Shown here: piece by piece, positions 7,160 through 22,138 of the stretch | How positions within the stretch are numbered: the stretch's first letter is position 1 | Layout of the letters: each line of letters opens with the position of its first letter | Origin: Defluviimonas salinarum | GTDB lineage: Bacteria > Pseudomonadota > Alphaproteobacteria > Rhodobacterales > Rhodobacteraceae | NCBI RefSeq assembly: GCF_026013545.1 | Contig: NZ_JAPDOG010000004.1 | Coordinates: 1 to 64,000, forward strand | Reading direction: 5' to 3' | Length of the DNA stretch: 64,000 bases | The notes under the pieces: model-generated | What the model was told of the DNA's origin: nothing | The model's database searches: none | The model's input: only the letters and a program-made list of their open reading frames with translations | Translations under genes and position numbers: made by a program

Positions 7160-7483
7160 ATGCTGACCCTTGAATGCCCCTATTGCGGCGTGAAAGCCGA
7201 GGAAACCGAGCTCCAGGCCGGCGGCGAGGCGCATCTGAAGCGCTTCGGGCCGGGCTCTTCCGACGACGAATTCGAAGGCTACCTGTTCCTTCGCAAGAAC
7301 CCCAAGGGCGTGCATTTCGAGCGCTGGCGGCATGCCTATGGCTGCGGCAAGTGGTTCCTCGCCGCCCGCTGCACCGCGACGCTCGAGGTGTTCGGCACCT
7401 ACAGCGCGCAGACCAAGGAGCCGCCTGCGGACCTGCAGGCAAAGATCAAGGCGAAACGCCCGGACTGGGAGGGCTACAAATGA
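7160..7483 (+). CDS. soxD: Sarcosine oxidase, delta subunit
   Basis: A 107-residue zinc-binding subunit. The N-terminal LECPYCG (Cys6, Cys9) and RHAYGCGKWF (His58, Cys62) match the Cys-Cys-His-Cys zinc site of the SoxD family to within one residue of the published numbering as I remember it. It packs against the alpha subunit and is structural. The start is set by GGAGG at 7149-7153; an upstream in-frame start at 7118 lies inside the terminator hairpin and is unlikely. The stop overlaps the soxA ATG (AAATGAGC). Confidence 0.96.
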   Translation: MLTLECPYCGVKAEETELQAGGEAHLKRFGPGSSDDEFEGYLFLRKNPKGVHFERWRHAYGCGKWFLAARCTATLEVFGTYSAQTKEPPADLQAKIKAKRPDWEGYK

Positions 7484-10461
7484 GCACGCGTCTTCAGAAA
7501 GGCGGCCGCCTGATCGACCGCTCGAAGGCCCTGTCCTTCACGTTCAACGGCAAGCGCATGAAGGGCTTTGCCGGTGACACGCTGGCCTCGGCGCTTCTCG
7601 GTGCCGACCAGATGATGGTCGGCCGCTCGTTCAAGTACCACCGCCCGCGCGGCGTTGTCGCGTCGGGCGCCGAGGAGCCGAACGCGCTCGTCGGCCTCGG
7701 GACCGGCGGCCGGTTCGAACCGAACCAGCGCACCACGACGACCGAGCTTTTCGACGGCGCGGTCACGGCCAGCCAGAACCACTGGCCGAGCCTCGAGTTC
7801 GACATCGGCGCGATCAACGACAAGTTCTACCGGTTCCTTCCGGCGGGCTTCTACTACAAGACCTTCATGTTCCCGCGCTTCGCGTGGAAGCACGTCTTCG
7901 AGCCGATCGTCCGCCAGTCGGCCGGTCTCGGCAAAGTGCCGCAGAACCGCGACGAGGACCGTTACGAATATGCCTATGCCTTCGCCGATCTGGTGATCGT
8001 CGGCGGTGGCATTGCCGGCCTTGCCGCGGCCCTTGCCGCCGGCAAGCAGGGCAAGCGCGTCTGGCTCATCGAGCAGACCGCCCATTGGGGCGGCCGCGCC
8101 GTCGTCGACGGTGTCCAGATCGAGGGCACGGATGCCGGCGCCTGGGTGAAGGAAGCCGTCCAAGCGCTTGAGAAGATGGAGAATGTCACGCTCCGCACCC
8201 GTACGATGGCCTCCGGTCTCTACGACCACGGCTATCTCATGGCCTATGAACGCATCGCCGACCATACGCCGGGCGACGGCCGTCCGCGCCACCGCCTCTG
8301 GCGGATGCGCGCCGGCCATATCGTCACCGCGACGGGCGCGATCGAGCGGCCGCTCTCCTTCGCGGGCAACGACATTCCGGGCGTCATGCTGGCTTCGGCC
8401 GTGCGCGATTACGTCGTCAACTGGGCGGTCAGCCCCGGTGACCGCACCGTGATCGTGACCAACAACGACGATGCCTACCGCACCGCGCTCGCGCTGCTCG
8501 ACGCGGGCCTCGTGGTGCCGGCCGTGATCGACGCGCGCCCCGAAGCCAAGGGCGAGCTGCCGCAGGCGGTGCGCGCCCGCGGCGTCCGCGTGCTCGAAGG
8601 CCACGGCATTGCCAAGGTCAAGGGCGGCAAGCGCGTCACCGGGGTTGCGACCTGCATCCAGGCCGGCGAGGGCGCCGAACTGGAGCAGATCGCCTGCGAC
8701 GCCGTGGCGATGTCCGGCGGCTGGTCGCCGGTCGTCCATCTCTGGTCGCATTGCGGCGGCAAGCTGATCTGGGACGACAAGCTGGCGATGTTCCGCCCCG
8801 ACCCGAAGCGTCCGGCGACGGGCGAGGACGGCGCGGCGATGGTGACGGCGGTGGGCTCGGCCAACGGAATCCTCGCGGCGCAGGACGTGCTCGCGGACGC
8901 GCATCAGGCTGTCGGTGGCAAGGGCACGGCGCCCGGCGCCGTCTCCGAGGCGGAAGAACCGCTGATCCCGGTCTGGATCATGCCGCAGGGCGCAGGCCCC
9001 GCGCTGCGCTTCAAGATGTGGCTCGACCCGCAGAACGACGTGAAGGTGTCGGACGTCCAGCTCGCCGCCCGCGAGGGTTACGAGTCGGTCGAGCACACCA
9101 AGCGCTACACCACGCTCGGCATGGCGACCGACCAGGGCAAGATCTCCAACATCAACGGTCTGGCGATCCTCTCGGACTCGCTCAACCGCGCGATCCCGGA
9201 GACCGGCACCACGACCTTCCGCCCGCCCTACACGCCGATCTCGATGGGCGCGATCGCGGGCGAGGCGCGCGGCGAGATCTTCCAGCCGCTGCGCAAGACG
9301 CCGATGCACGAATGGCACGAGACCCACGGCGCCCATTGGGAGCCGGTCGGTCTCTGGCGCCGTCCGTATTGCTTCCTGCGCTCGGGCGAGGGCGTCCACG
9401 ACGCGGTCAACCGCGAGATCCGGCAGGTCCGGAACTCGGTCGGCCTTCTCGACGCCTCGACACTCGGCAAGATCCTCGTGAAGGGGCCGGACGCGGGCAA
9501 GTTCCTCGACATGCTCTACACCAACATGATGTCGACGCTGCCGGTGGGCAAATGCCGCTACGGTCTGATGTGCAACGAGAACGGGTTCCTCTCGGATGAC
9601 GGCGTCGTCGTGCGCCTGACCGAGGACACCTGGCTCTGCCACACCACGACCGGGGGTGCGGACCGAATCCACGGCTGGATGGAAGACTGGCTCCAGTGCG
9701 AGTGGTGGGACTTCAAGGTCTATACCGCCAACGTCACCGAACAGTATGCCCAGGTGGCAATTGCGGGCCCGAACGCCCGGAAACTGCTCGAGAAACTCGG
9801 CGGCATGGATCTCTCGAAGGAGGCGCTGCCGTTCATGGAATGGCGTGAGGGCGTGCTCGGCGGGTTCCGCGCGCGGGTGCACCGGATCTCGTTCTCGGGC
9901 GAGCTTTCCTTCGAAGTCGCGGTTCCGGCGTCGGAAGGCCGCGCCTTCTGGGACGCGCTGATCGCGGCCGGCGAGGAGTTCGGCGTGATGCCCTACGGCA
10001 CCGAGGCGATGCACATCATGCGGGCCGAGAAGGGCTTCATCATGATCGGCGACGAGACCGACGGCACGGTGATACCGCAGGATCTCAACCTGCAGTGGGC
10101 GATCTCGAAGAAGAAGGAAGACTACCTCGGCAAGCGCGCCCAGGAACGCTCCTTCATGGCGAGCCCGGACCGGTGGAAGCTCGTCGGCCTCGAAACCCTC
10201 GACGGTTCGGTGATCCCGGACGGTGCCTATGCCGTTGCCGAGGGCTACAATGCCAACGGCCAGCGCAACATGCAGGGCCGGGTGACCTCGACCTACCATT
10301 CGCCGACCCTCAACAAGGGGATCGCGATGGGGCTCGTGAAGCACGGTCCCGACCGGATGGGCGAGGTGATCGAGTTCCCGGTGGACAATGGCAAGGTGGT
10401 CAAGGCGCGGATCGTCGATCCGGTCTTCTACGACAAGGATGGAGAAAAGCAGAATGTCTAA
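7480..10461 (+). CDS. soxA: Sarcosine oxidase, alpha subunit
   Basis: A 993-residue catalytic subunit with the expected order. An N-terminal ferredoxin-like fold lies at about residues 15-105 (FNGKRMKGFAGDTLASALLGA...SFKYHRPRGV). A dinucleotide-binding domain starting VIVGGGIAGLAAALAAGKQG near 173 binds NAD+. The C-terminal half, from about 600, is a GcvT-type tetrahydrofolate-binding aminomethyltransferase domain (LDASTLGKILVKGPDAGKFLDMLY cited by position; YGTEAMHIMRAEKGF). Length and domain order are normal. Together with SoxB, SoxD and SoxG it converts sarcosine, O2 and tetrahydrofolate into glycine, 5,10-methylene-THF and H2O2. It overlaps soxD by 4 bases and soxG by 8. Confidence 0.97.
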   Translation: MSTRLQKGGRLIDRSKALSFTFNGKRMKGFAGDTLASALLGADQMMVGRSFKYHRPRGVVASGAEEPNALVGLGTGGRFEPNQRTTTTELFDGAVTASQNHWPSLEFDIGAINDKFYRFLPAGFYYKTFMFPRFAWKHVFEPIVRQSAGLGKVPQNRDEDRYEYAYAFADLVIVGGGIAGLAAALAAGKQGKRVWLIEQTAHWGGRAVVDGVQIEGTDAGAWVKEAVQALEKMENVTLRTRTMASGLYDHGYLMAYERIADHTPGDGRPRHRLWRMRAGHIVTATGAIERPLSFAGNDIPGVMLASAVRDYVVNWAVSPGDRTVIVTNNDDAYRTALALLDAGLVVPAVIDARPEAKGELPQAVRARGVRVLEGHGIAKVKGGKRVTGVATCIQAGEGAELEQIACDAVAMSGGWSPVVHLWSHCGGKLIWDDKLAMFRPDPKRPATGEDGAAMVTAVGSANGILAAQDVLADAHQAVGGKGTAPGAVSEAEEPLIPVWIMPQGAGPALRFKMWLDPQNDVKVSDVQLAAREGYESVEHTKRYTTLGMATDQGKISNINGLAILSDSLNRAIPETGTTTFRPPYTPISMGAIAGEARGEIFQPLRKTPMHEWHETHGAHWEPVGLWRRPYCFLRSGEGVHDAVNREIRQVRNSVGLLDASTLGKILVKGPDAGKFLDMLYTNMMSTLPVGKCRYGLMCNENGFLSDDGVVVRLTEDTWLCHTTTGGADRIHGWMEDWLQCEWWDFKVYTANVTEQYAQVAIAGPNARKLLEKLGGMDLSKEALPFMEWREGVLGGFRARVHRISFSGELSFEVAVPASEGRAFWDALIAAGEEFGVMPYGTEAMHIMRAEKGFIMIGDETDGTVIPQDLNLQWAISKKKEDYLGKRAQERSFMASPDRWKLVGLETLDGSVIPDGAYAVAEGYNANGQRNMQGRVTSTYHSPTLNKGIAMGLVKHGPDRMGEVIEFPVDNGKVVKARIVDPVFYDKDGEKQNV

Positions 10462-11014
10462 GGCAGTCAGCGCCTTGGGGGGCGTTTCTCACAAAGGTTT
10501 CGTAGAGGTTTCCGAGGCAGGCCTGCAGGGCATGATCACCGTTCGCGGTGACTTGTCCTCGGCCAAGATGAAGAAGGCGGTGAAGGCTGCGACCGGCACC
10601 GCCGTTCCGGAAGCCCGCCGGATCGTCATTGCCGGCGACAAGGCCGCGGCCTGGATGTCGCCGGACGAGCTTCTGATCCTGGTGCCCTACACCGAGGCAG
10701 TGGCCACGGTCGCGGCGCTCGAAGAGGCGCTTGCCGGTGAGCACCACATCGTCGCGGACGTTTCCGACGCCCGCGCGATGTTCCGCATCAAGGGCGCGAA
10801 GGCGAGCCAGGCGCTCTTGAAGCTCTGCCCGGTCGACTTCGAGACGCTGGCGGAGGGCGAGATCCGTCGCACCCGCGCGGCCCAGGTCGCCGCGGCGCTC
10901 TGGAAATCGGCCGAGGACGAGTTCAGCCTCGTCTCGTTCCGCTCCGCCGCGGGCTATGTGTTTGGCGCGCTGGAAGTGTCGGCCCGCACCGGCTCGGAGC
11001 CGTTCCCGGCGTAA
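10454..11014 (+). CDS. soxG: Sarcosine oxidase, gamma subunit
   Basis: A 186-residue subunit, last of the operon. Family-typical stretches are ALGGVSHKGFVEVSE, ITVRGDLSS, AAWMSPDELLILVP and the C-terminal SFRSAAGYVFGALEVS. The fold resembles the C-terminal part of GcvT-like proteins, and the subunit helps to position folate in the alpha subunit. The ATG at 10454 lies inside the end of soxA, with GGAGAAAAG just upstream at 10441-10449. Two hairpins follow, the second a strong terminator at 11112-11145. Confidence 0.93.
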   Translation: MSKAVSALGGVSHKGFVEVSEAGLQGMITVRGDLSSAKMKKAVKAATGTAVPEARRIVIAGDKAAAWMSPDELLILVPYTEAVATVAALEEALAGEHHIVADVSDARAMFRIKGAKASQALLKLCPVDFETLAEGEIRRTRAAQVAAALWKSAEDEFSLVSFRSAAGYVFGALEVSARTGSEPFPA

Positions 11015-11020
11015 TCCTGA

Positions 11021-11050
11021 CGCCCCCGGTCCTGAAAGGGAGCGGGGGCG
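11021..11050 (+). terminator. Hairpin after soxG
   Basis: CGCCCCCG (11021-11028) pairs with CGGGGGCG (11043-11050), and a short internal CCT/AGG stem closes the loop. No T-run follows, so this may be a processing or stabilising hairpin ahead of the real terminator 60 bases downstream. Confidence 0.4.
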
Positions 11051-11111
11051 GATCCCTTGTGGCGTCGAGGCGATGGACGCGGTGATCGTCCCGCGTGGCT
11101 CCAGACAAGAA

Positions 11112-11145
11112 AACGCCCCCCGGCTGTCCGGGGGGCGTTGTTTTT
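11112..11145. terminator. Strong bidirectional terminator between soxG and the outer-membrane protein gene
   Basis: A perfect 12-pair stem AACGCCCCCCGG (11112-11123) / CCGGGGGGCGTT (11128-11139) with a 4-base loop is followed by GTTTTT on the plus strand and by TTTTCTTG on the minus strand. It separates the convergent sox operon and the gene at 11188-12354 and can serve both. Confidence 0.85.
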
Positions 11146-11187
11146 CGGGGTGCCGGAATTGTCTTCCGGAACGCCTGGCCTGGCGGC

Positions 11188-12354
11188 CTAGAATTCGAGC
11201 GATGCCCGGAGACCCAGCCGGTTCTCCTCTTCGCCATCGGCGGTGCTCAGGAACGAAAGGCCGGCGTCGAGGACCCAACTGGCGCCGGTTCCGAACGCCG
11301 AGCCGGCCGGGCGATAGATCACGCCGAGGGCGATGAGTTCGTCCGTCGCGTCGGGCTCGCCGAAGACCTCGGTCTTGCGGTTGGTATAGGTCGCGGTATA
11401 GGTCAGCGGTCCGGTTTCGATCGCCGCGGTTCCGGTGCTGAACAGCGCATCCTCGGGCGCGCTCTCGAAGTTGCGGAAATAGGCGACCTCTCCGAGCAGG
11501 ACCAGATCGACTGCGTCCGACAGCGCGAAGCGCTTGTTGACCGCGCCGAGATAGCCGATCTCGTCCTCCGGAACGATCTCGTCCTCGATCTGCTCCTCGG
11601 TCTGTGCGCCGGCCTTCTGGTAACGCAGCCCGAAACGGCCGCCGGCATCGCCGTCCTCGAAACAGCTCGTGGCCTCGGCGCCGGAGCAGAAGTCGTAGAA
11701 GATCCCGGCCGAGCCGATCCCCTCGACATTGCCGGCTCCGCCATCGGCGAGCGTCAGACGTGGCCGCTGGGTGCCGATCGAACGGTTCAGGATCGTGCGG
11801 TCGGTCGTGAAGACGTTGACGGTCACCGCGTGCGACAGCGACGCCGCCTCGAAGGGCACGGTGGCCTGGACGCCCCAGCGCTCCTCGGCGTCGTAGTCGC
11901 TCACGATGTCGGTGCCGTAGAGGTCGCTGAGCGCCGCGCTGGCGAGGCTGAAATCGGGATCGAACTTGCCGAGCCTGAAGCTGAACGGATCGGCTTCGTA
12001 CTGGCCGTAAATCTCGCCGAGAAAGGCGCCGGGACCATCCGACACGAAGCCGTCCTCGTCGGGGGCTTCGCTGATGTTCTCGGCGGTGATGGATCCGACG
12101 AAGCTCAATGCGTCGGTCGCCCGGAACAGGAGGTCGACGCTGAGGGTCGGTTCGAGCGTACTCGATGTACTGGGCGGCGGCGTGGCATCGAAGATCCAGT
12201 CGCCCTGCAACTCCAGCGTGAATGCGGTGTCCAGGCACGGTGCGGTGCACTCCTCGGCCGCCGCCGCCATCGTTGAGACGGCCAGCCCGATACCGGCAAG
12301 GCAGAACGTGCGGAGCAACCGAGATTCCGGTGCGTCTTCGTATTCAATTGTCAT
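11188..12354 (-). CDS. Putative outer-membrane beta-barrel (porin-like) protein
   Basis: A 388-residue exported protein. The N-terminus from the chosen ATG carries a signal peptide (hydrophobic segment TFCLAGIGLAVSTMAAAA, residues ~15-32). The mature part alternates polar and hydrophobic residues in short strands, contains few cysteines apart from CTAPC near the start and a pair near the middle, and ends in LRASLEF; a terminal Phe is the usual beta-signal for outer-membrane insertion. No specific porin family is recognised. A longer in-frame start at 12402 would bury the signal peptide, so 12354 is preferred although its ribosome-binding site (AGGGTGA) is modest. Substrate is unknown. Confidence 0.68.
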   Translation of the reverse strand: MTIEYEDAPESRLLRTFCLAGIGLAVSTMAAAAEECTAPCLDTAFTLELQGDWIFDATPPPSTSSTLEPTLSVDLLFRATDALSFVGSITAENISEAPDEDGFVSDGPGAFLGEIYGQYEADPFSFRLGKFDPDFSLASAALSDLYGTDIVSDYDAEERWGVQATVPFEAASLSHAVTVNVFTTDRTILNRSIGTQRPRLTLADGGAGNVEGIGSAGIFYDFCSGAEATSCFEDGDAGGRFGLRYQKAGAQTEEQIEDEIVPEDEIGYLGAVNKRFALSDAVDLVLLGEVAYFRNFESAPEDALFSTGTAAIETGPLTYTATYTNRKTEVFGEPDATDELIALGVIYRPAGSAFGTGASWVLDAGLSFLSTADGEEENRLGLRASLEF

Positions 12355-12779
12355 GGTCACCCTGGTCGCATCTATGCTGCTCGACGGGGACCAATCTGAC
12401 ACATGTCAGGTGAAATTGTGAACCATGTCGTGCTGATCGAACGCCGGTGCGCTCTATTCGCCACAAAGCGGCAGACTAACCATTAGGTTCCTACATCGGG
12501 ACGCGGTCCGCGAGGTTCATCGCCGCCGGAAGAGCCTCCGGAGTTCAACTGAAAGCCCAGGAATCCTATTGATTAATAGGAGAATTTCCTGATCGTCCCG
12601 ATGCGGCGATGCATTGAAATCGACGACTTTCCAAAGGCGGCGTTCGGTTCTTATCTCTAGATCTTTTGGGTAATTGCTGGCCGAAAAGGCTTATGAGACA
12701 ATGCAATTTCAACGCTATTCATGTGCAAGTCATACATTTGTCAGGCCTTATTGATTGGCCGAGTGGGTTTGGGGGGGTC
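12355..12779. promoter_or_regulatory. AT-richer divergent intergenic region with inverted repeat
   Basis: These 425 bases separate the outer-membrane protein gene (left) and the secreted protein of the RND cassette (right), and no gene is convincing in them. The base composition is clearly less GC-rich than the flanks, as expected of promoters. CCTATT-GATT-AATAGG at 12565-12580 forms a perfect hairpin, with GGAA/TTCC extending it loosely, and is the only clear symmetrical element; it is a candidate operator for the cassette to the right. Confidence 0.45.
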
Positions 12780-13616
12780 ATGGGTGTTCGGTTTGGACTA
12801 CTTGCAGGGTTCGCTTGTCTTTTCGTGACGCCGGTGGTGGCGGAAGTGGAACTGCTGGAAATTGATGCGAACAATTTCAGCGATCGTTCTCACGTCATCG
12901 ACAACCGCTGGACGCCGCTGAGACCGGGCGAACGTATGTCCTACGAAGGGTGGACCGTCGACGATGCCGGCGAAAAGGTGAAGCATCTCTATGTCGCCAC
13001 CGTGACCGACCTGACGAAGATGATCGCGGGAGTCCGCGTCCTCGTGCTCCTGGAGGAGGATTTCCAGGACGATACGCTGATCGAACAGGAGATCGCCTTC
13101 CGGGCGCAGGACAAGGACGGCAACGTCTGGCATGTCGGCGAACTGACCGAAGCCTTCGACGGCGACGACCTGATCGGCGCGAAATACTGGTTCCCCGGTG
13201 CCCCCGAAGGCGCCAGGGCAGGCATCAAGTTGGTGGCCGACCCCAAGGTCGGCGACCCTGAACTCTCGCAAGGTTACGCGCCGCCGCCGGTCAGTTGGAC
13301 CGACAGTGGTCAGGTGACCGAAGCGGGTCTCGTGGTGTCGGTGCCCGCCGGCGAGTTCTCGGACGTGATCGCGATCGACGAGCACGATCAGGAGACCGAG
13401 GAGGGCATATTCCAGACCAAGTATTACGCGCCGGACGTCGGGCTCGTGAAGATCGGCTTCAAGGGCGACGATCCGAACAAGGAAGAACTTTTTCTGACCG
13501 AAGTGATTGATTTGGACGAAGCGGGAATGGAGCGCGCCAGAGAACTCGCGCTCGAAATCGACGGACGCGGCTATGGGTATGCCGCGACGACACCAGCACA
13601 ACAAACCGAGGAATGA
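12780..13616 (+). CDS. Secreted protein of unknown function, first gene of the RND cassette
   Basis: A 278-residue protein with a signal peptide (MGVRFGLLAGFACLFVTPVVA, cleavage near residue 21). The mature part has features I associate from memory with a widespread unnamed family of secreted beta proteins: DNRWTPLRPGERMSYEG, TKMIAGVRVLVLL, AQDKDGNVWHVGEL and YYAPDVGLVKIGFKG near the C-terminus. Function unknown. The start at 12780 is the one that exposes the signal peptide; a 12666 start would add 38 unlikely residues. It ends 88 bases before the RND permease and is on the same strand, so a shared transcript is likely. Confidence 0.72.
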   Translation: MGVRFGLLAGFACLFVTPVVAEVELLEIDANNFSDRSHVIDNRWTPLRPGERMSYEGWTVDDAGEKVKHLYVATVTDLTKMIAGVRVLVLLEEDFQDDTLIEQEIAFRAQDKDGNVWHVGELTEAFDGDDLIGAKYWFPGAPEGARAGIKLVADPKVGDPELSQGYAPPPVSWTDSGQVTEAGLVVSVPAGEFSDVIAIDEHDQETEEGIFQTKYYAPDVGLVKIGFKGDDPNKEELFLTEVIDLDEAGMERARELALEIDGRGYGYAATTPAQQTEE

Positions 13617-13704
13617 GCCGGTAGCGCCGGAAGAGCGCCGACCGGACGAAAAACGAGGAGGCCGAGCGAGCAGGTTGTAGCGACTGCTAATAGGAGGTTT
13701 TGAC

Positions 13705-16659
13705 ATGACGAGGATCCACGAGGCTGCCGTTCGATACCGGCTTTTGATTCTCGTGCTCGGTGTCGTCGCCATGGTGGCGGGCGCCATCGAGTTCCGGCGG
13801 ATGTCGGTCAATTTGCTTCCCAACCTCTCGCCGACCATCGTCGAGGTGCAGACCGAGGCGCTTGGGCTGTCGGCTCAGGAAGTTGAGGCGATGATCACCG
13901 TTCCGCTCGAGGCCGACATGCTCAATGGTCTGCCTTGGGTCGACCGCATCGACTCGCGGTCGATCACGGGGCTGTCGTCGATCGAGATGGTGTTCGAACC
14001 GGGCACCGACCTGATGATCGCGCGCCAGATGGTCCAGGAGCGGTTGACGGCCGCCCACGCGCTGCCCAACGTCTCCAAGCCGCCGATCATGCGCCAGCCG
14101 GTCGCAACCGACGCGCGGGTCGTGCAGATCGGCTTGAGCTCGGAAACCCTCTCGCAGATCGACCTCTCGGTGCTTGCGCGCTGGACCATCCGGCCGCGGC
14201 TTTCCGGCGTTCCGGGTGTGGCGAACATCTCGATCTGGGGCGAACGCCAGCGCCAGATGCAGGTGATCGCGGATCCCGACGTGCTGTCGCAGAACGATGT
14301 GCTGCTCGAGGACATCATCCGGACATCGGGCAACTCGATGTGGGTGTCGCCGCTTTCGTATCTGGAAGCGTCGACGCCCGGCACCGGCGGGTTCATCGAC
14401 ACGCCGAACCAGCGACTCGGCATCCAGCACGTCTTTCCGATCGTGTCCCCCACGGACATGAAGGGGCTGCCGCTGACGGACAATCCCGCGATGGCGATCG
14501 GTGACGTCGCGGAGGTCGTCGAGGGGCACCAGCCGCTGATCGGCGACGCGCTGATCAACGGCAAGCCGGGACTCCTCATGGTTATCGAGAAGTTCCCCTG
14601 GGCCAGCACTGCCGAGGTGGCGCACGAAGTCGAACGCGCGATGGCCGGCATGAAACCGGGTCTGCCCGGCGTTGACGTGAACATGGACGTCTACAGCGCA
14701 GGCTTGATCGCCGAGCGCGCGGCCGACCGGATCCGGCTCGTGGCCGCGATCGGTGCGGCGGCTGCCCTCGCCGTGATCGCGCTCGTGTCGCGCGACTGGC
14801 GGTTCACTGCCGTCTCCGGCGTCACCGCAGGTGCTGCGGCGCTCATGTCGGTCTGGCTGCTCACCAGCATGGCCGGAGTGGTCAGCGGTGCAATGATGGC
14901 CGGGCTGTTCGCGGCGATCGGGATGATCCTTCACGACGCGCTTCAGGCCGCGGCTCCGGCCGGTGCCGAAGCGAGCGATCGCAAGCGAACGCTCATGGTC
15001 GTCACCACGCTCGCGGCGCTCCTCGCCGCGGTGCCGCTCATGTTCCTGGACGGTGTCAGCGGTGCCGTCGCAGCAGCATCGGTCTGGCCCTACATGGTCA
15101 CGATCGCGCTGTCGCTCGTGGTGGCCCTGTTGGTGGCGCCGGCTCTCGGCACGCTGATCGGTGGCCGCGGGCTCGCCGCCGCGCCGGCCTTTACGGCCGG
15201 GGGCAGTGTCTCGCGTATGCCGGGACTCGCGCTCGTCGCGCTTCTGGTGGCCGGCGGAGCGGGTGTCGTCGCGACGGTCAACATGGCCGCGGCGCCGAAC
15301 TTCCGCAACGAAAACGTGCTGGTCGAGTGGAACTCGGCGCCCGGTACGTCGCTCGAGGTCGTGATGGCGGAAGGCCAGGCACTGTCCGATACGCTGCTTG
15401 CGAGCGACATGGTCGCGCACGCGGCACTGCAGGTCGGCCGGGCCGAGATTTCGGACGAGGTTCTGAACGCGAACTCCGGTTCGTTGTGGCTGACGCTCGC
15501 CGATGGCGTGAACCCGGCCAAAGCAGAGCCCGAGATCGCCCGGATGGTGGAACAGGCCGGTCTTGCGGCTGCGGTCACGAGTTACCAGAACCGCCAGATC
15601 GCACGCGCGGCGCCGCCGACGGCGAACGCGGACCTGCTGGTTAGGGTCTATGGTCACGATTTCAACGAGTTGAACGCCAAGGCTCAGGAAGTCACTGATC
15701 GGCTGACCGCCATCGGCGGCATCAGCGGCGCCGAGTTGCGCCAGACCGATCTCGAGCAGGTGGTCGAAGTCGAAGTCGATCTGGACCGCGCCGCGAAATA
15801 CGGTGCCAAGCCGGGCGACGTCCGTCGCGCGCTCTCGGCGCTGGTCGCCGGGATTCAGGTCGGCCAGTTCTTCGAGAACCAGAAGGTGTTCGACGTGGTG
15901 GTGTGGGGCGACGGAACCCATCGCGGTTCGGTCGAGGCTCTCCAGACCGCGCTGATCGACGTGCCTGCGGGCAAGGTCGCGCTGTCTGACCTGGCCGACG
16001 TTCGGATCGCGTCGACGCCGGCCTTCATCAACCGCTCGGCGGTGTCGCGCTTCGTCGAGATCGCCGTGACGGCGCCTTCGGCGAATGCGGCGCTGGTGCG
16101 CGAGGTCGAGGCCACGCTCGCGTCGATCGATTTTCCGCTCGAATACCATGCGGAAGTGGTCGGCGGGACCGCGCTCGCCTCGACGGGCGGCGGGATTCCG
16201 ATCTGGCAGGTCGCTGTCGCGGCCTTGATCGGGATCGTGCTTCTGATGCAGGTCGCGCTTGACAGCTGGTCGCGCGCGGCGCTGGTGACGCTCTATGCGG
16301 CGTCGATCGGATCGGTCGCGGCGATTTCGGCCTTTGCGCTTGGTGTCTGGTCGGTGGCCGCGGCGATCGGCGCGGTGGCGGCGTTCGGCATCGGGCTCAG
16401 GGATGCGGCGACTGCGATGCGGTTCGATGCCCGCGATCCGGCGATGACGGCGCTCTTCACGGCCAAGGTGGCGACGATCGTGGCGCTTGCGCCGGCGATC
16501 CTGCTGTTCGCGCCGGGGCTGGAATTCGTCTGGCCGGCATCCGTGGCGTTGGTTGCGGGCCTGGTGGGTGCGGCTGCAATGGCGCGCTTCATCCTGCCGG
16601 CGCTCGCGGGCGCCCAGCCGGAAACGGCACTTGCTAGCGGAGGACAAGTCAATGCGTGA
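13705..16659 (+). CDS. RND-superfamily permease with altered proton-relay residues
   Basis: A 984-residue homologue of the RND permease at 17214-20357. The two align without gaps over the first ~420 residues (shared landmarks: VPLEA/IPLEQ, QMVQERL, GVPGVANISIWGER, GHQPLIGDA, EKFPWA). Twelve membrane segments and two large periplasmic loops are in the usual places. In TM4 the canonical VVDDAIIDVEN of the partner is replaced by ILHDALQAAAP, so Asp410 is His, Asp411 is kept and Glu417 is Ala. In TM10 GIAARNNIL is replaced by GIGLRDAAT at about residue 895. The protein therefore probably cannot couple protons alone and may act as the non-motor partner of a heteromer. The start has AGGAGG at 13691-13696. 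Confidence 0.85.
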   Translation: MTRIHEAAVRYRLLILVLGVVAMVAGAIEFRRMSVNLLPNLSPTIVEVQTEALGLSAQEVEAMITVPLEADMLNGLPWVDRIDSRSITGLSSIEMVFEPGTDLMIARQMVQERLTAAHALPNVSKPPIMRQPVATDARVVQIGLSSETLSQIDLSVLARWTIRPRLSGVPGVANISIWGERQRQMQVIADPDVLSQNDVLLEDIIRTSGNSMWVSPLSYLEASTPGTGGFIDTPNQRLGIQHVFPIVSPTDMKGLPLTDNPAMAIGDVAEVVEGHQPLIGDALINGKPGLLMVIEKFPWASTAEVAHEVERAMAGMKPGLPGVDVNMDVYSAGLIAERAADRIRLVAAIGAAAALAVIALVSRDWRFTAVSGVTAGAAALMSVWLLTSMAGVVSGAMMAGLFAAIGMILHDALQAAAPAGAEASDRKRTLMVVTTLAALLAAVPLMFLDGVSGAVAAASVWPYMVTIALSLVVALLVAPALGTLIGGRGLAAAPAFTAGGSVSRMPGLALVALLVAGGAGVVATVNMAAAPNFRNENVLVEWNSAPGTSLEVVMAEGQALSDTLLASDMVAHAALQVGRAEISDEVLNANSGSLWLTLADGVNPAKAEPEIARMVEQAGLAAAVTSYQNRQIARAAPPTANADLLVRVYGHDFNELNAKAQEVTDRLTAIGGISGAELRQTDLEQVVEVEVDLDRAAKYGAKPGDVRRALSALVAGIQVGQFFENQKVFDVVVWGDGTHRGSVEALQTALIDVPAGKVALSDLADVRIASTPAFINRSAVSRFVEIAVTAPSANAALVREVEATLASIDFPLEYHAEVVGGTALASTGGGIPIWQVAVAALIGIVLLMQVALDSWSRAALVTLYAASIGSVAAISAFALGVWSVAAAIGAVAAFGIGLRDAATAMRFDARDPAMTALFTAKVATIVALAPAILLFAPGLEFVWPASVALVAGLVGAAAMARFILPALAGAQPETALASGGQVNA

Positions 16660-17200
16660 TATCAGACACATACCGATGCTGTGCCTCGCCTTCGGTCTGA
16701 CCTGTCCCGCGCCGCTTCTGGCGGCCGGTGGGGGCGGGGGCGGATATGTCTCCGACGCCCCGATCCCCTGGCACATGACGCAGGACGGCGAGGGACGCAA
16801 TGTCATCGAGCTGATCCCGCATGCCGAGTTGCGGATCGGGCTGGAACTGACGGAAGTCACCGAACGGATGCCGCCGGAACCGCCGGCACAGGAGATCGTG
16901 GTCGCCTCGGCCGAGGAGCTCCAGACAGCGGCTGCAATCGAGGATCCGCCGGAGATCGTCAAGGTGCCGGTCCTGCCGCAGCTCACCGTGCCATACGGAT
17001 CGCTGATCTACTGGGCCGACGGCACCACCTGGGTCTACGGCGAAAACGGGGCCGAACGGCACTATGTCCGCTTGCCAGTGAACGTCGATCGGATCGAGGG
17101 TGAAACGGTCTATCTGCGGTCGGGGCCGCCCGTCGGAACCCAGATCGTCGCGGTTGGCGCTGCCGAACTCTTCGGTGCCGAGACCGGCACCGGTCATTGA
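16652..17200 (+). CDS. Reduced periplasmic adaptor (C-terminal RND adaptor domain only)
   Basis: A 182-residue exported protein with a signal peptide (residues 1-24, ending LLAA) and a glycine run. After a linker of about 70 residues comes a segment that matches the C-terminal, membrane-proximal part of RND membrane-fusion proteins: VPYGSLIYWADGTTWVY, then VNVDRIEGETVYLRSG and GTQIVAVGAAELFGAE. The lipoyl and alpha-hairpin domains that normally contact an outer-membrane channel are missing. The ATG overlaps the end of the first permease gene by 8 bases and the second permease starts 13 bases downstream, so all three are tightly coupled. GGAGGAC upstream at 16639-16645 supports the start. Confidence 0.75.
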   Translation: MRDIRHIPMLCLAFGLTCPAPLLAAGGGGGGYVSDAPIPWHMTQDGEGRNVIELIPHAELRIGLELTEVTERMPPEPPAQEIVVASAEELQTAAAIEDPPEIVKVPVLPQLTVPYGSLIYWADGTTWVYGENGAERHYVRLPVNVDRIEGETVYLRSGPPVGTQIVAVGAAELFGAETGTGH

Positions 17201-17213
17201 ACGGAGGCGCGTG

Positions 17214-20200
17214 ATGTTCAGGTTTCTGATCGAAGCAAGCATGCGCTTTCGCTATATTGTGATCGCGCTTGCGGCCATGCTGGTCATCTTCGGGGCGCAG
17301 CGGACCAACGATCTGAAGGTCGATGTGTTTCCCGAATTCGCGCCACCGCTGGTGGAGATCCAGACGCCCTCGCTCGGGCTGACGTCGATCGAGGTCGAGG
17401 AATATGTGACGATCCCGCTCGAGCAGGGTCTGGCCGGAATCGACGGGCTCGACATCATCCGGTCGAAATCGGCACCGCAACTGTCGTCGATCGTGATGAT
17501 CTTCACGCGCGACACCGATCTTCTGCGCGCCCGTCAGCTGGTGCAGGAGCGGGTCAACGAGATCTCGCCGACGCTGCCGACCTGGTCGAGCCCGCCGGTG
17601 ATCCTGCCGCCGCTCTCGGCGACGAGCCGGATCATGAAGATCGGCCTGTCCTCGGAGAAATACTCGCTGATCGACATGTCGATGACGACCTACTGGAAGA
17701 TCCGCGAGCGGCTCCTGCGGGTGCCCGGCGTGGCCAACGTCGCGATCTGGGGCGAGCGGCTGGAGATGCTGCAGGTGCAGGTCGATCCCGCACGCCTTGC
17801 GGAAAACGGCGTGACTCTGGACACGGTGATGGAAAGCACCGCCGACGCGCTCGATGTCGGGCTGTTGCAGTATTCCGACGGCGCTCGTGTCGGCACCGGC
17901 GGTTTCATTGACACCGATACGAACCGCTATCCGATCCACCATGTGCTGCCGATCCACTCGATCGACGATCTGAAGAAGGTCAGTGTCACCGGCACCGACA
18001 AGACGCTGGCCGACGTGGCCGACGTCAAGATCGACCACCAGCCGCTGATCGGCGACGCGGTTATCAACGACGGGCCGGGGCTCCTCCTCATCGTCGAGAA
18101 GTTCCCCTGGGCCAACACGCTCGACGTGTCGCTGAAGATCGAGGAGGCGCTCGACAAGATGCGGCCGGGTCTGCAGGACATCGAGATCGACAGCGAGATT
18201 TTCCGTCCGGCGACCTTCATCGAGACCTCTATCGACAATCTTTCCAAGGCGCTTCTCGTGGCGGCGGTGCTGGTCACGCTGGTGCTCTGGGTGTTCCTCT
18301 TCGACTGGCGCATCGCGCTCATCTCGATCGTTGCCGTGCCGGTGTCGTTGCTTGGGGCGCTCCTGGTGCTCGACTGGCAGGGAATGACGATCAACACGAT
18401 GGTGCTTGCGGGCTTTGCGATCGCGCTTGGCGCGGTGGTGGACGACGCAATCATCGACGTCGAGAACATCGTCCGACGATTGCGCGAAAACCGCGCAAAG
18501 CGGCTCGGCCGCTCTACCTTCCGGGTGATCCTTGAAGCGTCTCTCGAGATCCGGGCCGCGATCGTCTTCGCGACGGCGATCATCGTGCTGGCGGTCGTAC
18601 CGGTCTTCTTCCTCGAAGGACTGTCGGGGTCGTTCTTCCGGCCGCTCGCCTGGTCCTACGCGGTCGCCTTGATGGCCTCGCTCGTCGTCGCGGTGACCAT
18701 TACGCCGGCCCTGAGCTATGTGTTGCTCGGCAATCGCGACATCGGCGACAAGCCGGCGCCGCTGGCCCGGTTCCTGGTTGCGGGTTACCGCCGGATGCTG
18801 GATGCGATCTTCGCCGTCCCGCGCGTGACCGTCACGGCCTGCGTGGTGCTGCTCGGCGCCTGTTTTACGCTGTTGCCGTTCATGGGCCAGCAGCTCCTGC
18901 CCTCGTTCAAGGAGCGCGACTTCCTGATGCACTGGGTCACGGCACCCGGCGTCTCGCAGCCCGAGATGTACCGGATCACGGTCCAGGGCAGCAAGGAGTT
19001 GCGAGATATCGAGGGGGTGCGCAACTTCGGCGCCCATATCGGCCAGGCGCTCTACATGGACGAGGTCGTGGGCATGCATTTCGGCGAGAACTGGGTCTCG
19101 GTCGATCCCGCGGCGGACTATGACGCCACGCTCGACCGAATTCAGGAAGTGGTCGACGGCTATCCGGGGCTTTACCGGGACGTGCTGACCTATCTCAAGG
19201 AGCGCATCCGCGAGGTGCTGACCGGCGAGAGCGAGCCGATCGTCGTGCGCATCTTCGGTCCCGATTTCGAGGGGATCCGCGAACAGGCCGACCGCGTGGC
19301 CGAAGCGATCAGCGGTGTCGAGGGGCTCGTGGGGCTGCATGTCGGCCTGCAGAAGAATGTGCCGCAGATCGACATCCGGACCGACGTCGGGAAGGCGGCC
19401 GCCTATGGCCTGAAGCCGGGCGACGTGCGCCGCGCGGTCTCGACGATCATCTCGGGAATCGAGGCGGGCGACATCCATACCCATGCGCGCACCTATGACG
19501 TGCAGGTCTGGGGCACGCCGGAAGTCCGGGCGTCGCTGACGGATATCGAGAACATCCTGATCGACGCGCCGATCGGCGGGCAGGTGGCGCTGAAGGACGT
19601 GGCGGAAATCGCCGTCACGCCGACGCCCAACATCATCCAGCACGAGGATCTCTCGCGCTCGATCGAGGTTGGCGCCCATGTCTCGGGCCGCGATCTCGGC
19701 TCGGTCGCCTCCGAGGTGGAGGATATTGTCGAGGAGATGGAGTTCCCGCTCGGTTATCACTTCGAGATGCTGGGTGAGTTCGCGGAGCTGCAGGCCTCGC
19801 AGACCCGGCTCATCGCGGTGGAAATCGCGGTCGCGCTCGGGATCTTCGCGCTCCTGCACGCCTCGTTCCGCTCGATCCGCTACGCCGCGGTCGCCTTCGC
19901 AGCGATGCCGGCGGCGCTGGCCGGTGGCGTCGTCGCCGCCTGGCTCGGCGGCGGGATCTTCTCGCTCGGTTCGCTGGTCGGCTTCATCACCGTGCTCGGC
20001 ATCGCCGCGCGGAACAACATCCTGATGATCAGCCATTGCCAGCGGCTCGGGGAGGAGGGCATGCCCTTCGGTCCCGCGCGGGTCAGCCAGGCCGCCTGCG
20101 AACGGCTGGCGCCGATCCTGATGACCGCGATCACGACCGGTGCGGCGCTTCTGCCTCTGGTCGTGGCGGGCGAGATACCGGGACACGAGATCGAGTTCCC

Positions 20201-20357
20201 GATGGCGGTGGTGATCCTCGGCGGGTTGGTCAGCTCGACGCTGGTCAACCTGCTGATCATGCCGGTGCTGATCTTGTGGTTCGGCGCCGCCGCCGAGCGG
20301 GAGACTGCCGCGGCCAGTGGCGAGGCGTCTGCCGGTGGGTGGGCCGGCGCTCACTGA
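17214..20357 (+). CDS. RND-superfamily efflux permease (intact proton relay)
   Basis: A 1047-residue inner-membrane transporter of the AcrB/CusA type. TM4 carries GAVVDDAIIDVENIVRR (Asp410, Asp411, Glu417) and TM10 carries GIAARNNILMISH (about residue 929), both expected of a proton-driven pump. The two periplasmic halves each contain a PGVANV- or EGLVGL-type porter segment. The N-terminal style (LKVDVFPEFAPPLVEIQTPS, IPLEQGLAGIDGLD) is closer to heavy-metal-type (HME) RND proteins than to AcrB, but the methionine clusters of CusA are not evident, so the substrate is open. GGAGG at 17203-17207 precedes the ATG. No outer-membrane channel gene is nearby. Confidence 0.9.
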   Translation: MFRFLIEASMRFRYIVIALAAMLVIFGAQRTNDLKVDVFPEFAPPLVEIQTPSLGLTSIEVEEYVTIPLEQGLAGIDGLDIIRSKSAPQLSSIVMIFTRDTDLLRARQLVQERVNEISPTLPTWSSPPVILPPLSATSRIMKIGLSSEKYSLIDMSMTTYWKIRERLLRVPGVANVAIWGERLEMLQVQVDPARLAENGVTLDTVMESTADALDVGLLQYSDGARVGTGGFIDTDTNRYPIHHVLPIHSIDDLKKVSVTGTDKTLADVADVKIDHQPLIGDAVINDGPGLLLIVEKFPWANTLDVSLKIEEALDKMRPGLQDIEIDSEIFRPATFIETSIDNLSKALLVAAVLVTLVLWVFLFDWRIALISIVAVPVSLLGALLVLDWQGMTINTMVLAGFAIALGAVVDDAIIDVENIVRRLRENRAKRLGRSTFRVILEASLEIRAAIVFATAIIVLAVVPVFFLEGLSGSFFRPLAWSYAVALMASLVVAVTITPALSYVLLGNRDIGDKPAPLARFLVAGYRRMLDAIFAVPRVTVTACVVLLGACFTLLPFMGQQLLPSFKERDFLMHWVTAPGVSQPEMYRITVQGSKELRDIEGVRNFGAHIGQALYMDEVVGMHFGENWVSVDPAADYDATLDRIQEVVDGYPGLYRDVLTYLKERIREVLTGESEPIVVRIFGPDFEGIREQADRVAEAISGVEGLVGLHVGLQKNVPQIDIRTDVGKAAAYGLKPGDVRRAVSTIISGIEAGDIHTHARTYDVQVWGTPEVRASLTDIENILIDAPIGGQVALKDVAEIAVTPTPNIIQHEDLSRSIEVGAHVSGRDLGSVASEVEDIVEEMEFPLGYHFEMLGEFAELQASQTRLIAVEIAVALGIFALLHASFRSIRYAAVAFAAMPAALAGGVVAAWLGGGIFSLGSLVGFITVLGIAARNNILMISHCQRLGEEGMPFGPARVSQAACERLAPILMTAITTGAALLPLVVAGEIPGHEIEFPMAVVILGGLVSSTLVNLLIMPVLILWFGAAAERETAAASGEASAGGWAGAH

Positions 20358-20380
20358 CGCTTCCGCCTCCCCGCGAAAGG

Positions 20381-20410
20381 AACGCCCCGGCGCATCGCGC
20401 CGGGGCGTTT
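20381..20410. terminator. Terminator between the RND permease and guaA
   Basis: A perfect 13-pair inverted repeat AACGCCCCGGCGC (20381-20393) / GCGCCGGGGCGTT (20397-20409) is followed by a short T-run. It lies between convergent genes and is symmetric enough to act on both strands, though the T-tracts are short. Confidence 0.7.
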
Positions 20411-20466
20411 CAGTTGAAGCTTGCGTGCAAGGTCTCGCGAGACCGAACCGTTGGCAGTCGCGCGGC

Positions 20467-22026
20467 CTATTCCATCTCGATCGTGCCGGGGGGCTTCGAG
20501 GTGATGTCGTACATCACCCGGTTGATGCCCTGCACTTCGTTGATGATCCGCGTTGCGGTCTCGCCAAGGAAGTCGTGGGTGAAGGGGTAGTAGTCGGCGG
20601 TCATGCCGTCGACCGAGGTCACCGCGCGAAGCGAGCAGGCGTAGTCGTAGGTTCGCCCGTCGCCCATCACGCCCACGGTCTTCACGGGCAGGATCGCGAC
20701 GAAGGCCTGCCAGATCTCGTCGTAAAGCCCGTGCTTGCGGATCTGGTCGATGTAGACCGCATCAGCCTGCCGCAGGATCTCCAGCTTCTCGCGGGTGATC
20801 TCGCCCGGGCAGCGGATCGCGAGGCCGGGGCCGGGGAAGGGGTGGCGGCCGATGAACCGGTCCGGAAGTCCGAGCTCGCGGCCGAGCGCGCGGACCTCGT
20901 CCTTGAAAAGCTCGCGCAGCGGCTCGACAAGCTTCAAGCCCATCTTTTCCGGAAGGCCGCCCACGTTGTGGTGCGACTTGATGGTGACTGAGGGTCCGCC
21001 GGAAAAGCTGACCGACTCGATGACGTCGGGGTAGAGAGTACCTTGGGCGAGGAAGGTGGCGCCGCCGACCTCGTTGGCGTGTTTCTGGAAGACGTCGATG
21101 AAGAGCTTTCCGATGGTCTTGCGCTTCACCTCGGGGTCCGAGACGCCCTCGAGCGCGCCGAGGAAGAGGTCGGATTCATCCGCGTGGATCAGGGGAATGT
21201 TGTAGGTGTCGCGGAACATCGACACCACTTCCTCGGCCTCGTTGAGGCGAAGGAGCCCGTGGTCGACGAAGACGCAGGTGAGCTGGTCGCCGATCGCCTC
21301 GTGGATGAGGATCGCGGCGACGGAGCTGTCGACGCCGCCCGAAAGTCCGCAGATCACCTTCTGGTCACCGACCTGGGCCCGGATCTTCTCGATCGCGTCC
21401 TCGCGGTAGGCGCGCATAGTCCAGTCGCCGCTGAAGCCGGCGAGGCGGACGAAGTTTTCGTAGAGCTTCGCGCCCTTCGGCGTGTGGTGCACCTCGGGGT
21501 GGAACTGCACGGCGAAAAAGCGGCGCTCGGGGTCGGCGGTGATCGCGAAGGGGGCGTTCGGCGAGGTTCCGTAGACCTGGAAGCCGGGCGCGATCGCCGA
21601 GACGTGGTCGCCGTGGCTCATCCAGACCTGCTCGCGGCCTTCCGCGAACCAGCCGTCGAGGAGCGGCAGCCTGTCCTCGGTCGGCGTGACATAAGCGCGA
21701 CCGAACTCGGCGGTCTTGTGGCCGCGCTCGACGCGGCCACCCAGGCAGTGCATCATCACCTGCTGGCCGTAGCAGATGCCAAGGATCGGCACGCCAAGAT
21801 CGAACACGCCTGCGGGCGGCATCGGCGCGCCCTCGGCGAAGACCGAGGCGGGGCCGCCCGAGAAGATCACCGCTTTCGGGGCGAAATCCTTCAGGAAGGC
21901 ATCGTCCACCCGGTTGTAGGGGTGGATCTCGCAGTAGACGTTCAGCTCGCGCAGGCGCCGCGCGATGAGCTGCGTGACCTGGCTGCCGAAGTCGATGATG
22001 AGGAGGCGGTCATGGGCGTGTGTCAT
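20467..22026 (-). CDS. guaA: GMP synthase (glutamine-hydrolysing)
   Basis: A 519-residue enzyme that aminates XMP to GMP using glutamine and ATP, the last step of guanine nucleotide synthesis. The class I glutamine amidotransferase domain is N-terminal with the nucleophile in GICYGQQ (Cys85) and HPEVH (His176, Glu178). The ATP pyrophosphatase loop GLSGGVDSS is at about 227-235, and the C-terminal dimerisation domain ends in [12 protein letters not shown], the normal end. An in-frame extension upstream of 22026 has no domain character, and [20 protein letters not shown] is the usual start. It is a single gene with its own leader. Confidence 0.98.
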
Positions 22027-22079
22027 GGCCGGGGAATATTGCCTTGTCCGATCCGGCGCAAGGGTGTTTGGCGGGGAAG

Positions 22080-22138
22080 GCGGGGGCTGTCTGCCCCGTC
22101 GCCATTGGTGCTTGAACCGGTGGCACACCAATGGCGAC
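22080..22138 (-). repeat. Long perfect inverted repeat in the guaA leader / downstream of ocd
   Basis: GTCGCCATTGGTG (22098-22110) and CACCAATGGCGAC (22126-22138) form a perfect 13-pair stem with a 15-base loop. A second GC hairpin, CGGGG...CCCCG, abuts it at 22081-22098. On the minus strand it follows the ocd stop by 33 bases and precedes guaA, so it may terminate the rocF-ocd transcript or structure the guaA leader. No T-run is present. Confidence 0.6.

Follow-up and report, generated by a model that had tools for sequence, protein, structure and literature searches.

A tandem pair of RND permeases with an uneven proton relay suggests a pump whose subunits share one engine

Introduction

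Two described groups of resistance-nodulation-division (RND) pumps come closest to the locus studied here. MdtABC and MuxABC-OpmB, of the hydrophobe/amphiphile efflux 1 (HAE-1) branch and the MdtB2C type, carry two tandem paralogous permeases from one old duplication, as does our locus. The MdtBC duplication was described earlier (PMC7015380), and for MdtB2C a split has been proposed between energy transduction by MdtB and substrate handling by MdtC (PMC4338810). A survey covering 6205 permeases of 920 Gram-negative proteomes, with Actinobacteria and Chloroflexi excluded, found 203 tandem permease repeats, all in the MdtBC HAE-1 clade (PMC10872679). The best matches by sequence among solved structures are two homotrimers of the heavy-metal efflux (HME) RND group, ZneA (1e-143) and CusA (1e-123). 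CusA requires D405, E939 and K984, and its protomers have been proposed to act independently (PMC8092243). Here we analyze a stretch of 64,000 nucleotides from Defluviimonas salinarum (contig NZ_JAPDOG010000004.1, positions 1 to 64,000; hereafter the window), in which two RND permease genes, A and B, flank a gene for a short adaptor. An initial annotation had proposed that the first copy, A, lost independent proton coupling while keeping its fold. Judging from A, B and their relatives, it is somewhat probable that the two form an obligate heteromeric (mixed) RND pump, in which B is the motor and A acts in the periplasm, its dependence on proton coupling relaxed to an extent that differs between lineages.

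Results

Permease A (13705..16659, plus strand) has 984 residues, and permease B (17214..20357, plus strand) is intact, has 1047 residues and is presumed to be the motor subunit. Both match the ACR_tran profile (PF00873) far above its cut-off of 28 bits (A 286, B 689), confirming that two RND permeases are encoded here. They were also described as adjacent, and they do lie on the same strand in the same module, but a gene of 182 codons (16652..17200, plus strand) stands between them, encoding a mini membrane-fusion protein (mini-adaptor). Its start overlaps the end of the A gene by 8 bases and its end is separated from the start of B by a gap of 13 bases, so the three genes overlap or almost touch. 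Neither permease reaches the curated cut-off of 701 bits for TIGR00914, the CusA/CzcA model (B 548, A 165 bits).

The proton relay is complete in B and altered in A. As annotated, B reads DDAII from residue 410, comprising Asp410-Asp411 (18441..18446, plus strand) and followed by Glu417 (18462..18464, plus strand), and GIAARN at residue 929. A reads HDALQ at 410 and GIGLRD at 895, the latter in transmembrane helix (TM) 10 (16387..16404, plus strand), and its His410-Asp411 site in TM4 (14932..14937, plus strand) aligns with D407-D408 of AcrB and D405-A406 of CusA. These residues of A were read correctly in the initial annotation, but the alanine reported at 417 reflects a deletion and not a substitution. 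The two proteins were also said to align without gaps over their first 420 residues; read in that way, 86 of 420 residues are identical, and a global alignment shows several one-residue gaps that cancel before TM4. In window A, the end of TM4 and the TM4-TM5 linker are missing (44 residues, compared with at least 58 in the other 48 A sequences of the family alignment below; the B median is 63). The TM10-TM11 stretch is incomplete as well (47 residues, compared with at least 60 in the same 48 sequences). The RND fold has a two-fold repeat, and the two deletions are located at matching places of its two halves. Such deletions change the protein more strongly than point substitutions do. Window A retains Asp411 (AcrB D408) and the TM10 arginine (AcrB K940), and alanines occupy the places of AcrB R971 and T978.

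Window A as the sole query gave no match in named genomes. Among 60 genomes related to that of the window, 21 of them congeneric, none has an A; the match in one of the more distant ones was a single-type permease. No match was found in 340 other genomes of the order, which partly overlap with those 60. Among 384 other genomes of the class, one (G115) carries the pair; its A-type permease is 40% identical to window A and retains Asp-Asp, Glu and an intact TM4. An alignment of these two A sequences as the query retrieved 75 loci from named genomes, and a good number of these loci are tandem pairs. Pairs were also present in 2 of 397 other genomes of the phylum (one fragment, G954, was left unclassified). 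With the search centres included, 14 of 246 Actinomycetota genomes and 5 of 201 from Chloroflexota gave matches. These prevalence figures are lower bounds because few candidates were scored per genome (two each for class, order and phylum, three for Actinomycetota and four for Chloroflexota).

The family alignment contains 49 A-type and 48 B-type permeases and leaves out open reading frames below 650 bits or 560 aa. The 66 rows first labelled B consist of the 48 of the B clade and 18 single-permease relatives, and two of the 37 rows first labelled single (L029, L030) are B fragments beside an A. The members from named genomes span five phyla, namely Actinomycetota, Chloroflexota, Pseudomonadota, Bacteroidota and Myxococcota. 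Because many of them stem from metagenome assemblies, an isolated unexpected placement could reflect contamination. In the Actinomycetota sample, one genome holds two separate A-adaptor-B modules, with glycine at position 410 in both A copies.

A and B descend from a single duplication and remain paired. A quick tree that left out the TM4-TM5 and TM10-TM11 columns groups all A rows in a single clade (support 100), with the B rows as its sister (98). When Escherichia coli references were included, A and B formed one group (100/100) on the CusA side, and MdtB and MdtC were sisters (100/100) on the AcrB side; the two tandem duplications are therefore independent. CusA is the nearest of the four references, and grouping with it over AcrB and MdtBC has 100/99 support in a tree that is rooted on AcrB, MdtB and MdtC and has a single, long-branch CusA reference. 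By sequence, the pair is thus placed on the heavy-metal-efflux side of the RND tree. B adjoins A in 46 of 46 assessable loci, with three further A rows reaching contig ends, and an A without its partner, which would have spoken against the proposal, was not seen among these 46. A precedes B in 44 loci and follows it in 2. In all 16 whole genomes considered, which were chosen for holding pairs, A and B occur only together. Their distances are correlated (r 0.84 over 44 loci), and A is more diverged than B in 945 of 946 comparisons. Window A sits on a long branch, and a more careful search did not fix its position among the A rows.

Relay residues are fixed in B and repeatedly lost in A. Asp410, Asp411, Glu417, Arg933 and Arg964 do not vary in the 48 B rows, nor do Asn418, Arg421, Arg422 and Asn934. 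Single-permease relatives have Asp410, Asp411 and Glu417 in 53 of 53 cases, which makes relay loss in A the derived state. Among the 49 A rows, Asp410 is kept in 40 and otherwise replaced by His (3), Ala (2), Gly (2), Phe (1) or Asn (1); Asp411 is kept in 43, Glu417 in 21 and the TM10 arginine in 42. Over the 44 loci where both genes could be aligned, the full Asp-Asp-Glu-Arg-Arg set is present in 12 A copies versus 44 B copies, and the 12 loci whose A lacks Asp-Asp each have a complete B. Among the altered A copies, those of L062/L063 have Ala-Val in TM4 and Phe or Leu in TM10, and that of L037 has Phe410.

The fewest changes needed within A are 6 at Asp410, 3 at Asp411 and 10 at Glu417. His410 is found only in the window and in L132/L133, which retain Glu417. 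The first tree separates the two; by an approximately unbiased (AU) test, however, a tree that unites them is not rejected (p 0.969), and this tree had a better score than the one from the unconstrained quick search. A common origin of His410 would lower the Asp410 count to 5, and because the AU test leaves this possible, we give the losses as about 5-6. We note that the family tree and the His-origin tree are quick searches, and in the AU-test run a quick search proved able to overlook a better tree. For the TM4 trio, 19 changes in A face none in B, which has a chance of about 1e-4 if changes are proportional to tree length (21.4 and 13.2); for Asp410 changes only, the chance is about 0.055 under the same expectation. 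Both figures were computed after the data were seen. At the family level, the asymmetry between A and B exceeds chance, though the two aspartates alone do not stand out.

A phylogeny had been suggested for asking whether the His/Ala form is a conserved clade beside an intact partner. A is indeed a distinct clade with an intact B beside it in all 46 assessable loci, but the His form is not a conserved clade within it. We rejected such a clade, as TM4 is intact in G115 and His410 recurs elsewhere only in L132/L133. The scattered His410 and the A homologues that bear Asp410 and Glu417 mean that "non-motor" is at most a graded state reached in several A lineages and does not define the clade.

A stronger contrast between A and B lies in where they are conserved. 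We counted columns conserved at 90% or more over 44 loci, with domain borders taken from general knowledge of AcrB-type proteins. The N-terminal half of the porter (N-porter) has 90 such columns in A and 85 in B, whereas A falls far behind in TM2-6 (10 versus 62), TM8-12 (15 versus 70) and the C-terminal half of the porter (C-porter; 40 versus 84). After removal of near-copies above 85% identity, the count of conserved columns in the membrane domain, divided by that in the N-porter, is 0.28 in A (43 rows), 1.48 in B (41 rows) and 1.59 in single relatives (35 rows), and the pattern is thus inverted in A. The single relatives are more diverged (mean identity 0.44) than A (0.47) and yet show the ratio of 1.59. 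As a comparator we used MdtB and MdtC from 19 Pseudomonadota pairs and E. coli, having dropped one of 20 fetched loci (L208) whose two copies were not distinguished, and near-copies above 85% identity were removed here too. The ratios are 1.75 for MdtB and 1.48 for MdtC, and in both permeases all 20 sequences agree at the six relay positions checked. Since these ratios resemble those of other permeases, a known heteromeric RND pump does not have the pattern of A.

The porter of A carries its own conserved features. A keeps B-invariant positions at a fraction of 0.87 in the N-porter and 0.94 in TM12. Ten positions are near-fixed in A and free in B, eight of them in the N-porter, and the clades show fixed differences at two positions (Gly216 to Ser and Tyr761 to Phe). 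Several A-specific positions fall within residues 209-246 (14329..14442 in window A, plus strand), a segment that bears residues conserved only in the A clade and aligns around AcrB 208-240. In AcrB this stretch extends to the neighbouring subunit, and the segment of A may reach its neighbour here as well. The concentration of A-only positions in the N-porter, together with the co-occurrence of the mini-adaptor and often of a neighbouring gene, nb278 (see below), would also fit an A that moves no substrate and serves as a scaffold or as an assembly or regulatory partner, for example a docking platform for these two proteins. We regard such a role as improbable, as the A clade has 40 conserved C-porter positions, 35 of which are kept by window A.

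Purifying selection acts on relay-altered A copies. Five sets of close species were compared, namely L132/L133 (His410), Streptacidiphilus (Glu417 to Ala), L062/L063 (Ala-Val), Mesorhizobium (Asp411 to Thr) and L182/L183 (Asn410 in L183). The ratio of nonsynonymous to synonymous substitution rates (dN/dS) is 0.13-0.34 in these A copies and 0.08-0.20 in their B partners; a first pass of seven comparisons had given 0.17-0.34 for A and 0.08-0.13 for B. Constraint on the relay-altered A sets is greatest in the N-porter, where dN/dS is 0.06-0.19. In TM2-6 it rises to 0.33-0.48 in A of Streptacidiphilus, L062/L063, Mesorhizobium and L182/L183 (B 0.00-0.20), so the membrane part is the loosened region in most of these sets. 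In L178/L179, whose A copies keep both aspartates, the TM2-6 values are 0.14 for A and 0.06 for B.

These low ratios indicate that the relay-altered A copies of relatives are not decaying. Random decay in relatives, which would have undercut the proposal, was therefore not what we found, and we rejected it as a general cause given this selection and the porter sites kept in the window. For window A itself no close relative was found, but it retains most of the porter sites conserved in its clade. Its long branch, its two unique deletions and the absence of any A found in the genus could be taken as signs of a decaying copy. This is very improbable: the frame is open over all 984 codons, third-position GC is 0.85 compared with 0.88 in B, and of the positions that the other 48 A rows conserve, window A has 77 of 84 in the N-porter and 35 of 40 in the C-porter. 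The dN/dS of 0.13-0.34 in relay-altered relatives points the same way.

The adaptor of this family is shortened. In 46 of 46 pairs the two permease genes enclose an adaptor-like gene, whose aligned part is at most 190 aa in 35 of 46, with a maximum of 313 aa. Near single permeases, 48 of 57 adaptor-like open reading frames have at least 290 aa. The mini-adaptor profile matches AcrA, MexJ and CusB in their C-terminal regions (E 2e-5 for the best of all hits), and the middle of the protein is absent from most rows of the alignment. By eye, many of the starts resemble lipoprotein signals. Pfam recognized none of the 36 mini-adaptors scanned at E 0.01. The window mini-adaptor has a signal-peptide-like start followed by the terminal adaptor domain, and its 182 residues seem to leave no room for the hairpin and lipoyl parts, as in a hairpin-less adaptor. 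The full-length hairpin adaptor of tripartite RND systems is thus not part of the window operon.

Upstream of A lies nb278 (12780..13616, plus strand), a gene of an unnamed family whose 278-aa product has a start resembling a signal peptide by eye. It has no significant match in NCBIfam, Pfam or PDB sequences (best PDB E 0.04). Within the stretches fetched, homologues occur at 22 of the 46 pair loci, the window included; they lie mostly downstream of B, and some of these matches are weak. In L028 (15199-17040), two copies of nb278 are joined in one frame. Further upstream, a divergent gene on the minus strand (11191..12402), which we take to be porin-like by eye, has no Pfam match and is a weak candidate for an outer-membrane partner. 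Among the fetched loci it matches only the Mesorhizobium pair loci L040, L048 and L064 (758-764 bits), at the same place. No TolC-type outer-membrane factor was recognized by NCBIfam or Pfam among the five window proteins scanned; the rest of the genome was not searched. In a survey of neighbours for a clue to the substrate, no gene besides the mini-adaptor was common to all pair loci.

In two Chloroflexota loci (L038, 11125-13598; L046, 11114-14510), genes that resemble those for an ABC ATPase and ABC-2 permeases lie between A and the mini-adaptor. The genes flanking the module in the window (7471-22101), which we take to be sox-like and guaA-like, have same-genus counterparts that are 83-93% and 85-93% identical, respectively. 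On same-genus contigs carrying both, these counterparts are far apart, and the flanks are thus rearranged.

Discussion

The initial annotation compared the pair with MdtBC. The likeness holds in that A and B are tandem paralogous permeases that, like those of the MdtBC type, always occur together (46 of 46 loci). A and B differ in that they arose by a separate duplication on another branch of the RND tree, and MdtB and MdtC both keep the relay and an ordinary conservation of the membrane domain, which A as a clade does not. The gene order differs too: A and B flank the mini-adaptor, while E. coli mdtB and mdtC sit directly side by side, without an adaptor gene in the middle. We therefore rejected classing A and B under MdtBC. 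On the HME side, the CusA system has a single permease and a full-length adaptor (cusB, 407 codons), in contrast to two permeases and a short adaptor here. The best plasmid matches of B are single-permease HME-like pumps of Methylomonas and Sphingomonadaceae (about 48-55% identity over most of the length); the Methylomonas plasmid locus is annotated as a TolC family protein, a membrane fusion protein and one permease, with no A partner seen. We found no description of the A/B pair in the open-licence literature.

In the mixed pump that we favour, B with its full proton relay would drive the conformational cycling. A, an old paralogue of B, has kept the periplasmic porter, above all its N-terminal half, and its membrane domain would have been released from the constraint of proton coupling, with the relay lost outright in some lineages. 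A and B would most likely assemble into one mixed trimer with the short adaptor encoded between them. Substrate would be handled in the periplasm and protons would pass mainly through B, while A would supply porter and docking surfaces, taking the role split proposed for MdtB2C further. We infer the mixed trimer, its stoichiometry, the direction of transport and the absence of proton conduction by A in the window organism from sequences.

Several observations weigh against this proposal. Both Asp410 and Asp411 are kept in 36 of 49 A rows, so that most A copies could still be proton-coupled, and Asp-Asp-Glu is present in 16 of 49. Homologues restoring Asp410 and Glu417 had been named beforehand as a refutation, and these counts bear it out in part. 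Retention of Asp410 and Asp411 in A ranks 63 and 77 among the 131 B-invariant positions, that is, the two are lost no more often than a middling column. A pinpoint loss of the relay in A is weakened as an explanation, and the claim rests on the whole membrane domain. A keeps B-invariant positions at about the same fraction in the C-porter (0.68) as in TM4-TM5 (0.62) and TM10-TM11 (0.63); its relaxation thus extends well beyond the relay and is not specific to it. The A copies of L132/L133 have a dN/dS of 0.13 in TM2-6, near the 0.10 of B. With this region hardly relaxed, the histidine may serve as a proton carrier there, and His410 need not imply an uncoupled subunit. Finally, a covalently linked AcrB trimer is inactive with one relay-dead unit (PMC4403515), which argues against an unpowered subunit unless protomers act independently, as claimed for CusA.

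Read together with the TM10 arginine kept in 42 of 49 A rows, the retained aspartates, their middling rank and the constrained TM2-6 of L132/L133 would suit an A that is proton-coupled in its own right, either as its own homotrimer or as an equal partner, with a fast-evolving membrane domain and lost residues replaced by others. His410, the retained Asp411 and the TM10 arginine would then be its proton carriers. We consider this unlikely, though the least so of the alternatives. No complete relay is found in L062/L063 or L037, nor in window A, with its shortened TM4-TM5 and TM10-TM11 stretches and its changes at the places of AcrB R971 and T978. The conserved-column ratio of A, 0.28, is far from the 1.48-1.75 of the other permease sets, and no assessable A occurs without B. 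The proposal that the first copy is uncoupled with its fold kept thus stands as far as the distinct A clade, the intact B and the purifying selection in relatives are concerned, and is held back by the aspartates that most A copies keep.

More broadly, it is possible, though we hold it only tentatively, that these loci represent a class of obligate heteromeric RND pumps spread over several phyla, with A as a true non-motor subunit. Selection would then maintain its periplasmic porter and let the transmembrane proton machinery disappear, as far as the truncation of both cytoplasmic-side stretches seen in the window, and a mixed trimer, joined by a shortened adaptor, would be powered by one or two motor subunits. 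Many of the pairs are hosted by Actinomycetota and Chloroflexota, most of which are generally described as lacking an outer membrane. The A/B pair adds a second lineage of tandem permeases besides the HAE-1 MdtBC clade of the published survey (PMC10872679). Whether each RND protomer needs its own relay is unsettled between the results on linked AcrB (PMC4403515) and the independent protomers proposed for CusA (PMC8092243). A naturally occurring pair, one permease of which has lost relay residues several times while remaining under selection, offers a direct test of this per-protomer need, and suggests a pump whose subunits may share one engine.

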